DNA of 64,000 bases from assembly GCF_002261345.1 (NCBI RefSeq), contig NZ_NEVT01000007.1, positions 1 to 64,000 on the forward strand. Direction: 5' to 3'. The translations under genes were made by a program, and so were the position numbers. Position 1 is the stretch's first letter, and every line of letters begins with the position of its first letter. The notes under the pieces are model-generated. The model was not told where the DNA came from and ran no database searches. It saw only the letters and a program-made list of their open reading frames with translations. Below are positions 1,328-44,886 of the stretch, piece by piece. The DNA comes from Bordetella genomosp. 2. Its GTDB lineage: Bacteria; Pseudomonadota; Gammaproteobacteria; Burkholderiales; Burkholderiaceae_B.

Positions 1328-1427
1328 GTGGGGCGAGCCTTACTCCGGCACTGATCCTAAACGACTATGGCTGCTTCGTTCCCGACCTGACCAGGTTCAC
1401 CGCCGAACCATGCGAAGGGGCCCGCCA
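1328..1427 (-). ncRNA. ffs: 4.5S RNA, small bacterial signal recognition particle RNA
   Basis: The RNA partner of Ffh in co-translational targeting of membrane proteins. On the minus strand the conserved distal hairpin is clear: CCTGGTCAGGT, a GGAA tetraloop, then CGAAGCAGCCATAG. The pair closing the tetraloop is G-C rather than the common C-G, a compensatory swap that supports a real RNA. The ends pair as well: GGCGGGC near 1420-1426 with GCTCGCC near 1333-1339. End positions are estimated from this closing helix and could shift by a few bases. A TAGAAT hexamer at about 1441-1436 is a plausible -10 element, and it sits inside the long palindrome at 1417-1487. Confidence 0.9.
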
Positions 1428-1487
1428 CCTCGAATTCTAACAGAGCGGCCGGGAGGCCGCCTGTTGGAATTCGAGGTGGCGGGCCCC
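1417..1487. repeat. Near-perfect 71-bp palindrome overlapping the ffs promoter and 5' end
   Basis: Arms of 27 bp at 1417-1443 and 1461-1487 are complementary with one mismatch (T1438, which would form a G-T pair). The 17-bp centre contains a second hairpin, GCGGCC / GGCCGC around GGGA. The left arm includes the first bases of the 4.5S RNA and its probable -10 element. Both arms contain an EcoRI-type GAATTC or its one-base variant. No T-tract follows, so this is not a standard terminator. The 1488-1647 stretch to the left of the OsmC gene holds only C- and G-run-rich hairpin-prone DNA. Confidence 0.85.
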
Positions 1488-19557: not shown

Positions 19558-19627
19558 GGTGCCTGACACCCGGACGGGTGTCAGGCATCTGGCCCGAGCC
19601 GACCCTCCCGTCAAGGTGCCAGGCACC
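19558..19627. repeat. GGTGTCAGGC-type palindromic repeats, site A
   Basis: The first copy is a perfect 12-bp inverted repeat, GCCTGACACCCG (19561-19572) and CGGGTGTCAGGC (19575-19586), with a two-base loop. A shorter second palindrome, GGTGCC A GGCACC, follows at 19615-19627. The same core recurs at 22.7 kb and 26.1 kb. It is located between the LysR gene and its divergent target. Confidence 0.8.
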
Positions 19628-26142: not shown

Positions 26143-26280
26143 AGGTGTCAGGCACCTTCGGAGCCTGACACCTGCTCAATGCCGATTCGTCTGGGGGGGT
26201 GCCAGGCATCTTTGGAGCCTGGCGCCTGCTCAATGCCGGACTTTCTGCCAGGTGTCAGGCGCCTCGGGCGCCTGACACCT
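26143..26280. repeat. Three tandem GGTGTCAGGC palindromes inside the box operon (site C)
   Basis: Copy 1: AGGTGTCAGGC (26143-26153) with GCCTGACACCT (26163-26173). Copy 2: GGTGCCAGGC (26199-26208) with GCCTGGCGCC (26217-26226). Copy 3: AGGTGTCAGGCGCC (26250-26263) with GGCGCCTGACACCT (26267-26280), a 14-bp perfect stem with a 3-base loop that overlaps the boxC stop codon. The first two copies are each followed by CTGCTCAATGCCG, so the repeat unit is about 54 bp. They separate boxC from boxB and could tune the relative expression of the two by RNA folding. Confidence 0.88.
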
Positions 26281-27937
26281 ACACACGGTTCCAGTCGAAG
26301 GCGGCCTGCTCGCCCTTGCCGTAGAGTTTCAGCGCGCCCTTTTCGCCGGCGGCGTTGGGACGGTTGAAGATCCAGTTCTGCCAGGCGGTCAGGCGGCCGA
26401 AAATGCGCGTCTCCATGGTTTCGCGCCCGCCGAAGCGCAAGTTCGCTTCCAGGCCGGTCAGCGCGTCCGGCGACAGGGCGCGCCGCTCTTCGAGCGCCAG
26501 GCGCACTTCATCGTCCCAGTCGATGCTGTCGGGCGCGAAAGTGACCAGGCCCAGCTCGAGCGCGCGCGCGGCCGGCAGCAGTTGCCCGGCGGCCGCGCGG
26601 ACCGCCTCCAGCGGCAGCGTCTCTTCGTAAAAGCGCCGCTGCAGGCGGCTCTGCCCGCTGACCAGCGGATAGGCGCCGAAATTGCGTTCGCCCACCACGA
26701 TCTGCGCCGGGCTGTCGGCATCCTCGTCGTCGAGCATGTAGATGCGGTCGGCCGCCAGGGCCAGCTCGAACAGGGTGCCGGCGAAGCAGGAGCCCGGCTC
26801 GATCAGCGCGAAGATCGAGCGCGAGGTCACGTCCAGCCGCGCCAGAGTGCGGCGCAACATGCCGGCCGTCTCGCGCACGAACCAGTGGTCGCCGTGCTGC
26901 TGCAGGGCCGCGTCGGCCGCCAGCACGGCCTGGATGTCGCCCTCGGTCTTGAAGACCCAGGTGCCCAGGTCGGGCTCGTTGGTGCGCAGGCTCAGGATCG
27001 CGTCATCCAGCTCGCGCGCCATCTGCAGCGGCCACCAGGCCGCGCCGGCCGCGACGATGGCGTCCAGCTCCTGCTCCACCGGCGCTTGCGGCGCCCGCAC
27101 CGTCCAGGTGGCCAGCCGCTTGTCGCGGTCGAACACCACCTCCACGTAGCGATAGGACAGGCGGTCTTCCTCGATGCGGCGCTCCAGCGGCGTCAACGTC
27201 ACGCCGCGCGCCTGCGCCGGCCGGTCGCTGCCGGCGGCCAGTTCTTCGGCACGCGCGCGCACCGCCGCCTCGAACTGGGCCGGCTTGACCACCTGGCCCA
27301 CCAGCCGCCAGTCCTTGGCGCGCTGTCCGCGCACCCCTTCCACCAGGGTGCAGAAGATGTCGGCATGGTCGTGCCGCACCTTGCGCTTGTCGGTGACCCG
27401 CGTGAGCCCGCCGGTGCCCGGCAGCACGCCCAGCAGCGGGACTTCCGGCAGGGCCACGGCCGACGAGCGGTCGTCGACCAGCACGATCTCGTCGCAGGCC
27501 AGCGCCAGTTCATAGCCGCCGCCGGCGCACGCGCCATTGAGCGCGGCGATGAACTTGAGCCCGCCGTATCGGCTGGAATCCTCGATGCCATTGCGCGTCT
27601 CGTTGGTGAACTTGCAGAAGTTCACCTTCCAGGCGTGCGACGACAAGCCCAGCATGAAAATGTTCGCGCCCGAGCAGAAGATGCGGTCCTTCATGCTGGT
27701 AACGACGACCGTACGCACCTCGGGATGCTCGAAGCGGATGCGCTGCAGGGCATCGTGCAGCTCGATATCCACCCCCAGGTCGTACGAATTGAGCTTCAGC
27801 TTGTACCCCGGCCGCAGCCCCCCGTCCTCGGCCACATCCATCGCCAGCGTGGCGATGGCGCCATCGAATTTCAATTTCCAGTGCCGATACCGGGCCGGCT
27901 CCGTCTGGAAGTCCACGCGGGTGGCGGGGCTGCTCAT
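26279..27937 (-). CDS. boxC: Benzoyl-CoA-dihydrodiol lyase BoxC
   Basis: A 552-residue enzyme of the crotonase superfamily that opens the epoxidised or hydrated ring of benzoyl-CoA, releasing formate and 3,4-dehydroadipyl-CoA semialdehyde. Crotonase-type segments are visible: [40 protein letters not shown] (oxyanion-hole glycines) and [22 protein letters not shown], with a second related half C-terminal. The start at 27937 is supported by AGGAGA. It is first in the boxCBA transcript, 50 bp from a well-formed promoter. Confidence 0.95.
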
Positions 27938-27965
27938 GATGCGTCTCCTGGCGTATGAACAATAC

Positions 27966-28038
27966 TGCATTAGATGAATTAAAGTGCAGATTAGTGCAGA
28001 AAAAAAAGCCCGTCAAGCACCAGATGCACAAAAATGCA
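27966..28038 (-). promoter_or_regulatory. boxC promoter with overlapping BoxR-type operators
   Basis: On the minus strand TTGACG (28016-28011) and TAATCT (27993-27988) are spaced by exactly 17 bp. Five TGCA elements surround them, at 27966, 27985, 27995, 28025 and 28035. Two pairs show TGCA-N6-TGCA, the half-site arrangement described for the related regulator BzdR. GTGCTTGAC spans the -35 and TGCACTAAT leads into the -10, so repressor binding would block RNA polymerase. Benzoyl-CoA would be the expected inducer, by analogy. Confidence 0.75.
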
Positions 28039-28072
28039 GTTTCAATCAATCCATACGGCACCACAACCCAAT

Positions 28073-28107
28073 GCGCGCCCAGGCCGCGCAGGGCGGCCTG
28101 GGCGCGC
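28073..28107. repeat. 14-bp perfect hairpin between boxR and boxC
   Basis: GCGCGCCCAGGCCG (28073-28086) and CGGCCTGGGCGCGC (28094-28107) pair perfectly around a seven-base loop. No T-tract lies on either strand. Because it lies upstream of the boxC promoter and downstream of boxR, it may help stop boxR read-through into the boxC control region. Confidence 0.75.
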
Positions 28108-28200
28108 GGCCCCGCAAGACGCTCCTCTTTTCCTCCCCCGTAGCAACGAAGCGCAAGAACCCCTGCCTGCCCCGCGGCGCTTGCCATGTGTCCACTGCCA

Positions 28201-28363
28201 GTCGCCGGCGGGCGGCGGGGCGGGCGGGGCGCCTCGGGGCCGAGCGAGCGGATGCCGTAGGGAGGCCCGAAGGGGCCGGACGAGGCGAGCGTAGCGATTC
28301 CGGGCGCGCGGGGCGCCCGGACGGCGCCGTGAAGCCCCGCCCGCCCCGCCGCCCGCCGGCGAC
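28201..28363. repeat. 163-bp element bounded by perfect 30-bp inverted repeats
   Basis: The arms 28201-28230 and 28334-28363 are exact reverse complements over 30 bp, G/C-only apart from one position. The 103-bp interior contains at least two further hairpins: GGCCC/GGGCC around 28264-28277, and CCGGGCG/CGCCCGG around 28300-28320. The whole could fold into one closed stem with internal arms. It lies between boxR and the boxC promoter. No open frame in it looks like a gene, and it encodes no transposase. With the 28073 hairpin it accounts for most of the 483-bp boxC-boxR gap. Confidence 0.85.
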
Positions 28364-28420
28364 GCCAATAGAACACCAACACCCGACCAGCCAACCAGCC
28401 CGACAGACAAGCTCCGCTTG

Positions 28421-29329
28421 CTACAACGGCAACCCGCAAGCCTTGCGAACCTGCGCCCGCAGCCCCCCGAAGCTTTCCTGCAGGCTCAGGTTGCTGGTCA
28501 CCCAGGTCAGGTCGGCCTTGGCGTAGAACGCCTCGCGTCCGGCCAGGATGCGCTTGAGGTCGGCCATGGCTTCGTTGTTGCCCGACATGGGGCGGAAATC
28601 CCCCTGCGCCATGACCCGCGCCATATGCTCGTCGGGCATGGCGCGCAGCCATACCGTGTAGCAATGGGCCAACAGCAGGTTCAGCGTGGCCGGTTCGGAC
28701 ACCAGCCCGCCCGGCGTGGCCAGCACCATCTCGGGGTAGATCTGCACCGCCTCTTCGAGGGCGCGGCGCTCGTAGCGCCGGTAGGCATTGGGCCCGTACA
28801 GGTTGTGGATCTCGAGGATGCTGCAGCCGGCCACCCGTTCGATCTCGCGGTTGAGCTCGACAAACGGATAGCCCAGGTCGTCGGCCAGCATCTGCCCCAG
28901 CGTGGACTTGCCGGCGCCGCGCAGCCCGATGAGCGCCACGCGCTGGAACCGGTTGGGGCGCTGCGCCCCGCCGCCGACCCCGAACAGCTGCGTCAGCGCC
29001 TCGCGGGCGCGCTGCAGGTCGGACTCGGTGCGGCCGCTGAGCAATTCGCGGATCAACAGCCAGTCGGGCGATTCGGTGGTGACGTCGCCGACCAGTTCCG
29101 CCAGGGCGCAGTTGAAGGCCTTGGCGATCTGCAGCAGCACCAGGATGGAGGCGTTGCCCACGCCGTGCTCCAGGTTCGCCAGATGGCGCTCGGACACGCC
29201 GGTGGCCTGGGACAGGCTCTTGCGCGTCATGCCGCGTATCGCGCGCAGGCGCCGCACGCGCTCGCCCAGCGCCACCAGGAATGGTTCGCGGCGCGGCTCC
29301 GATGATTCCTTGTCTAGCGCTTGGATCAT
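28421..29329 (-). CDS. boxR: Transcriptional regulator BoxR (HTH plus shikimate-kinase-like domain)
   Basis: A 302-residue regulator with a distinctive two-part build. The N-terminal lambda-type helix-turn-helix (LGERVRRLRAIRGMTRKSLS...ERHLANLEHGVGNAS) is followed by a shikimate kinase-like domain with an intact P-loop (GLRGAGKSTLGQML, about residue 140). This is the architecture of BzdR/BoxR, repressors of anaerobic and aerobic benzoyl-CoA pathways in which the kinase-like domain binds benzoyl-CoA. It sits between the two box operons it presumably represses. A GCACTATAGTGC palindrome 40 bp upstream suggests autoregulation. Confidence 0.95.
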   Translation of the reverse strand: MIQALDKESSEPRREPFLVALGERVRRLRAIRGMTRKSLSQATGVSERHLANLEHGVGNASILVLLQIAKAFNCALAELVGDVTTESPDWLLIRELLSGRTESDLQRAREALTQLFGVGGGAQRPNRFQRVALIGLRGAGKSTLGQMLADDLGYPFVELNREIERVAGCSILEIHNLYGPNAYRRYERRALEEAVQIYPEMVLATPGGLVSEPATLNLLLAHCYTVWLRAMPDEHMARVMAQGDFRPMSGNNEAMADLKRILAGREAFYAKADLTWVTSNLSLQESFGGLRAQVRKACGLPL

Positions 29330-44712: not shown

Positions 44713-44886
44713 AGGTGTCAGACACCCCTTGAGAGAGCCTGGCAACCTGCCGGCCATCTCCCGGGGTGTCTGACACCTGATCGCATCGCCGGCCCCATTG
44801 AACAGGAGCGCCCATCCTTAGGTGTCAGACACCCCTTGAGAGAGCATGGCAACTTGCCGCCCCCTCCCCGGGGTGTCTGACACCTG
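44713..44886. repeat. 107-bp tandem duplication carrying AGGTGTCAGACACC palindromes
   Basis: Two units with a 107-bp period start at 44713 and 44820. Each begins AGGTGTCAGACACCCCTTG, continues GAGAGAGC-TGGCAAC-TGCC with few changes, and ends CCGGGGTGTCTGACACCT, so each forms a large stem of about 16 bp with smaller internal TGTCAGACA palindromes. The flanking CCGGCCCC-TTGAAC is duplicated too. The rest of the 588-bp gap between the leftward thiamine-diphosphate gene and the rightward TctC gene has no convincing gene; it should carry both divergent promoters. Confidence 0.85.

Follow-up and report, generated by a model that had tools for sequence, protein, structure and literature searches.

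A structured, non-coding repeat between boxR and boxC in Bordetella genomosp. 2 is probably half of a dispersed, MITE-like element

The hairpin between boxR and boxC

The window analysed here, a stretch of 64,000 nucleotides from Bordetella genomosp. 2 (contig NZ_NEVT01000007.1), carries minus-strand genes in the order BoxR (ending at 28421), BoxC, and then BoxB and BoxA. A first-pass annotation, made from the letters alone, had described a 163-bp non-coding element with exactly complementary 30-bp arms around 103 nt, and without a T-tract, between the first two of these genes. Matches to NF006015 and TIGR03222 bear out this position, and the features of the interval are given in Table 1.

The arms are confirmed, and both their length and the stability of the fold lie beyond shuffled sequence. 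Among perfect inverted repeats of the 64-kb window with arms of at least 13 bp and at most 220 nt between them, the 30-bp arm is the longest (the runner-up is 21 bp), and when the 2 kb around it was dinucleotide-shuffled 300 times, the best perfect arm was only 15 bp. Likewise, the RNA fold of window positions 28191-28373 reaches -145.7 kcal/mol against a mean of -109.7 over 200 dinucleotide shuffles, none of which folded as well (z -7.84). The perfect arms of this hairpin far exceed chance.

A simple codon-position gene caller placed zero genes over the hairpin, and the overlap of open reading frames with it is purely mechanical, so its description as non-coding stands. The reported lack of a T-tract also holds, since a terminator scan of 27900-28500 returned 0 sites with a GC-rich hairpin directly followed by a T-run. 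No sigma-70-like promoter pattern was found in the same interval. An Rfam scan of 27900-28700 with E up to 10 returned nothing over the hairpin; it gave four matches, all far under the gathering scores, two of which overlap the small hairpin or spacer described below.

Table 1. Features of the boxR-boxC interval in the window
Feature	Position	Strand	Description
boxC	26279..27937	-	TIGR03222, 966.9 bits; start side towards small hairpin
Inter-block segment at boxC-boxR locus	28040..28421		382 bp in window
Small hairpin	28073..28107	-	35 nt; perfect 15-bp stem, 5-nt loop
Spacer	28108..28200	-	93 nt, partly conserved; minus strand GGTTCTTGCGCTTCGT ... GGAAAAGAGGAGCGTCTTGCGGGGCC
Large hairpin	28201..28363	-	Perfect 30-bp outer arms 28201-28230 and 28334-28363; branched 103-nt interior
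Outer flank	28364..28373	-	TTCTATTGGC (minus-strand reading); conserved; boxR-facing side
boxR	28421..29329	-	NF006015, 448.7 bits; stop codon towards large hairpin

A two-hairpin unit that occurs in facing pairs

Although the 163-bp hairpin is real, it is only part of a larger unit, whose second hairpin and spacer the first-pass annotation had missed. A geometry scan of the window found one such unit, composed of the large hairpin, the 93-nt spacer and the small hairpin. The same scan of loci L001-L100 found 34 distinct units, or 33 after the one at L100 was dropped as an unrelated palindrome array near a Y1_Tnp gene. Across these 33 units the spacer measures 89-104 nt and the small hairpin 34-38 nt, with a 15-16-bp stem that carries one mismatch in 8 units. 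L044, L047 and L050 come from three further genera of the host's family; they are more diverged in sequence and keep the geometry. Beyond the arms, many aligned copies carry a motif like the outer flank, and the pair copies of genome G081 discussed below have one at a single end.

Alignment A1 has 31 rows, the two L047 units being omitted because their hairpin is longer, and alignment A2 has 33. Two separate models, one of the large hairpin and one of the spacer with the small hairpin, were searched over 75 sources (451 kb; some build loci overlap). The large-hairpin model gave 183 matches, of which 108, from 73 of the 75 sources, were kept by hand; those dropped were a duplicate locus (L111 is L190), opposite-strand shadows, and weak or partial matches including L033. 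For the spacer/small-hairpin model 99 of 110 rows were kept, ten of the others having matched the hairpin part alone and one sitting on a large hairpin. For 89 of the 108 large-hairpin matches, a spacer/small-hairpin match on that strand lies 1-31 nt to the inner side, and a facing second unit is present for 76 of the 108 large hairpins in the loci examined. Pairs of two large hairpins (n = 35) span 521-1284 nt, with a median of 786 nt. We think it probable, jointly with the MITE-like explanation as a whole, that the full element consists of two face-to-face units, large hairpins outward and small hairpins inward, and is typically about 0.8 kb long. The window contains one unit alone, with no partner facing it.

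No frame was called over the units in most of the loci checked for coding capacity. A called frame crosses the hairpin at three of the 30 loci of one set (L080, L087 and L092), and these frames are taken as gene-caller errors. The middles of two long pairs hold only short or overlapping ORFs, and no autonomous version was met among the pairs examined.

Copies in the genome and taxonomic range

A BLAST search with the 163-bp sequence hits 12 places in the genome at E < 1e-12, the window included. With 150 candidates scored for each, the large-hairpin model gives 11 strong copies (E < 1e-27) and the spacer/small-hairpin model 12 (E < 1e-13); weaker large-hairpin matches are also present, the best at 3e-6. 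The first-pass annotation had named a lack of further copies combined with no conservation at orthologous loci, or membership of a longer coding frame, as grounds against an element; other copies exist, and no gene was called over the hairpin.

At E <= 0.001 the profile matches all nine genus genomes, and at least 56 of 250 genomes from at least 14 of 43 genera in the host's family, the candidates scored being capped at 10 for each genome. In a survey of the order, with at most six candidates scored per genome, at least 4 of 399 genomes match and the matches listed all come from the host's own family, a range from which distant forms are missed because the model was built mostly from the host's genus. 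Window positions 28040-28380 have no match among plasmids and phages at E 1e-5, and the core pattern is absent from the viral contigs searched, the same exact pattern also missing five of the nine genus genomes. Carriage as plasmid or phage cargo was rejected on these results. The 22-base core pattern was also seen at L064-L069 (an alphaproteobacterial MAG, two Roseicella, Dankookia, an Acidobacteria MAG and a Verrucomicrobia MAG), where the geometry scan finds no two-hairpin unit.

Stems keep their pairing while their sequence drifts

Several copies with conserved arms had been named on first reading as what would support an element. The interior and the spacer are indeed conserved among the copies, but the arm sequence is not, and what is kept is the pairing. 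Changes on both sides with pairing retained occur at 38 of 50 pairs of the large stem and 14 of 15 pairs of the small stem, counts that are inflated because the units of A1 and A2 were chosen by a geometry requiring paired arms. The covariation score is 0.543 for the large hairpin (0.130 shuffled) and 0.767 for the small one (0.138 shuffled), and slid controls lose most of the covariation. In model-found hairpins, taken in their best register, a perfect 26-bp arm is present in 56 of 101 and an arm with one mismatch in 28, a count that avoids the selection bias only partly, since the model was built from those units and the register is the best of many.

For the composition of these arms, seven of the 108 hairpins were dropped as shorter than 150 nt, and then one of the 101 with more than six mismatches. 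The 100 usable arms that remain contain 2524 Watson-Crick pairs, 10 G-T, 30 A-C and 36 other mismatches; the two alignments combined contain 13 G-U and 25 A-C. That the arms differ and yet are paired, with G-T not favoured, points to structure that is DNA-level or formed by both strands, or else to templated correction. If the constraint acted only on RNA of the gene-sense strand, G-U would be expected, but G-T was counted 10 times against 30 for A-C, and such a constraint is not favoured. The excess of A-C may fit folding of the opposite strand, although the copies are related.

Substitution types were flips (143), double transitions (80) and other double transversions (69) in the large stems, and 62, 42 and 48, respectively, in the small stems; being near saturation, these counts carry nothing firm. 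Arm-to-arm identity (0.72, against 0.60 shuffled and 0.79 in the interior) is rough, and the self-pairing of 0.87 in the same comparison is an underestimate, the arm window having overrun by 1-3 bases. Sites shared between species have arms that are different and largely paired. For example, at the site shared by L142 and L153, which are about 94% identical by eye, a change in one arm mostly has its counterpart in the opposite arm, and a few mismatches are left.

Dispersal, ends and the empty gap in relatives

In both genus searches, G081 gave more element matches than any other of the nine genus genomes. Nine of its pair copies, each of about 0.8 kb, were aligned; eight are 82-95% identical to the first, and their flanks differ. 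Since the copies are similar and lie in different flanks, the family disperses. The pair copies start with GAGT(T/G)CT(A/G)TTGGACGTCGA and finish with its near-complement, and thus have terminal inverted repeats. Their left end is sharp. The right end is less so: the common part stops about GTCCAATAAGCAC, and L131, L137 and L140 share a further AAACCTCTGA some 25 nt outside. No target-site duplication was seen by eye in the nine copies, and the box-locus sites are too diverged for this comparison. Some G081 contigs also have units at their ends.

At the box locus, the gap that corresponds to the inter-block segment of the window measures 29 bp in G123, 40 bp in G141, 7 bp in G053 and 161 bp in G081, lengths that leave no room for a unit, and none is present. 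The gap is therefore without the element in all four relatives that have both genes adjacent; boxR and boxC lie apart in G103 and G156, and G171 and G015 have no box match. As judged from this comparison of sequences, the distribution fits a gain of the box-locus copy in the host's lineage, and its loss in the relatives is a possible alternative. The further copies in the genome, the dispersed copies in G081 and this empty orthologous gap together support the mobile non-autonomous element that the first-pass annotation had proposed as one of three readings; the other two, a structured RNA and a transcription boundary, are possibilities, and the mismatch spectrum speaks against a constraint on gene-sense RNA alone.

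A comparison of 37 element-bearing loci from seven genomes revealed several sites that are common on both flanks across species. L028 shares its site with L143 and L151, L133 likewise with L143 and L151, L029 with L152, L142 with L153, and L144 with L150, while L149, L155 and L160 share theirs mutually; the window site is not among them. Because such sites are common to two to four species, movement is not frequent everywhere. The last of the sites listed, intact in G123, G171 and G053, has its two flanks at two different elements (L146 and L148) in G103, either because the repeat was a point of rearrangement or through a join made in assembly.

Placement relative to genes

Both neighbours were called for 90 hits; the flanking genes converge in 50 cases, run in the same direction in 40 and diverge in none. 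A simple gene caller was used for this count, 18 of the 108 hits had a neighbour uncalled, and frames reaching more than 45 nt into the hairpin were not taken as neighbours. The gene on the outer side has its stop codon towards the large hairpin in 72 of 100 cases and its start in 28, and the median distance from stop codon to stem among the stop-facing genes is 55.5 nt. It should be noted that these context counts are not independent, because some of the sites are orthologous. Placement at gene ends fits both a terminator-like function and placement where harm is least.

Other palindromes in the window and near the copies

Palindromes of the GGTGTCTGACACC type were observed in the window at 44714-44884 (four) and at 19558, 22788 and 26144, amounting to 11 strand matches with at most one mismatch against 0.04 expected. 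The same type surrounds the genome's one Y1_Tnp gene (L100), and it therefore looks like a separate RAYT/REP family. A 71-nt hairpin with perfect 21-bp arms lies at window positions 1417-1487. REP-type palindromes were also seen within 400 nt of some large hairpins (L143, L144, L151, L154, L155 and L189).

Competing explanations

The explanation we prefer, and regard as probable, is that the structure in the window is a solo half-unit, and that the family to which it belongs is a dispersed MITE-like repeat, non-coding and non-autonomous, that is tolerated at gene ends. The same hairpins could instead be a functional 3'-end element, acting as a bidirectional transcription barrier or as a protector of mRNA 3' ends, notably between convergent genes, and selected as RNA on both strands. 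This is a real possibility, although a somewhat doubtful one. It would account for the 72 of 100 outer genes whose stop codons face the large hairpin at that short median distance, for the lack of any hit between divergent genes, and for sites common to several species; folding on both strands would also remove G-U, in line with the mismatch counts. However, the locus has no T-tract terminator pattern, and the absence from the box locus in four relatives, together with the many matches in G081, looks more like a mobile element. Moreover, a tail-to-tail bias is described for MITE-like repeats, where it is explained as the least-worst location (PMC2718517), and stem-loops in general are reported to cluster at gene 3' ends (PMC1590033).

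Two further alternatives appear much weaker. A family of structured non-coding RNA genes acting in trans would suit the complex conserved interior and the strong covariation, but it is improbable given that no Rfam model matched the large hairpin at E up to 10, that no sigma-70-like promoter pattern lies in 27900-28500 and that G-U pairs are not preferred. We consider it more improbable still that the element is REPIN-like and owes its movement to a REP-associated tyrosine transposase (RAYT). Inverted pairs of extragenic hairpin units do resemble REPINs, and the genome carries one Y1_Tnp gene; however, the locus of that gene carries a different 33-nt palindrome, of the AGGTGTCAGACACC type, and of the nine genus genomes searched for Y1_Tnp, six gave one match each while G081, G103 and G015 gave none, so that the genome with the most element matches is among the three without. 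A RAYT was rejected as the mobiliser on the absence of Y1 from G081 and on the different palindrome at the host's own Y1_Tnp locus, and no mobilising enzyme came to light.

From the anatomy, copies, dispersal and covariation observed, we infer a mobilising step, a cause of the near-perfect pairing and an effect on boxR or boxC along the following lines. The MITE-like element would be moved in trans by an enzyme recognising its end hairpins as folded single strands. Alternatively or additionally, templated copying during DNA synthesis (quasi-palindrome correction) may maintain the pairing of the arms. Copies would survive where a very stable hairpin is least harmful, at gene 3' ends. Here the unit probably does no more than set boxR apart from the control region of boxC, as a passive structured 3' region. 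A more specific proposal, that the ends of a mobile element are both recognised and rewritten as folded single-stranded DNA, arm templating arm during DNA synthesis so that the stem sequence would drift fast and pairing would stay near perfect, with an undescribed mobiliser that is not a RAYT, is offered as speculation that we hold to be rather unlikely.

Relation to known repeat families

REP sequences and REPINs are dispersed extragenic palindromes, arranged in inverted pairs and associated with RAYTs. The unit described here is much larger, at about 300 nt, and no Y1 transposase was found in the copy-rich G081. Elements of the IS200/IS605 type have hairpins near their ends and no obvious target duplication; in contrast, no transposase gene was found with the element here, and its end hairpins are far larger.

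A close likeness in description is to the Pseudomonas fluorescens families R0, R1, R2 and R6, intergenic repeats of which some are MITE-like (PMC2718517). These repeats are 80-177 bp long with inverted repeats of 24-43 bp, occur in tens to hundreds of intergenic copies with a tail-to-tail bias in most families, and are suggested to move in trans (PMC2718517), so that size, inverted repeats, intergenic copies, orientation bias and a suggested movement in trans are all shared. Their description as read gives no two-hairpin unit with a fixed spacer and no covariation of the arms, and the bacteria are different (PMC2718517). In the genus itself, Bor-2 of Bordetella bronchiseptica is listed as a stem-loop family of 167 bp with 17 intergenic copies and a predicted structure (PMC2267715). 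Its size and host fit the large hairpin and it may be the same family, a likeness by description only; that description as read mentions neither a spacer nor a small hairpin, nor units in pairs (PMC2267715). Other reports give Bor repeats of 26-30 bp (PMC1590033) and mention REP-like families in Bordetellae (PMC3733652). No description of the two-hairpin unit appears among the titles and abstract openings surveyed, a scope with most subscription journals outside it. We regard this as a new, or newly unified, family of dispersed structured repeats, set against Bor-2 by description only.

Significance

Large intergenic hairpins in the host's family are easily filed singly as oddities; here they form one family of fixed geometry, whose stems are maintained by pairing more than by sequence. 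The family offers a natural test of how near-perfect long palindromes are kept up, whether by RNA selection, DNA selection or templated correction, and its mobilising enzyme, if found, may represent a new way of moving structured DNA.
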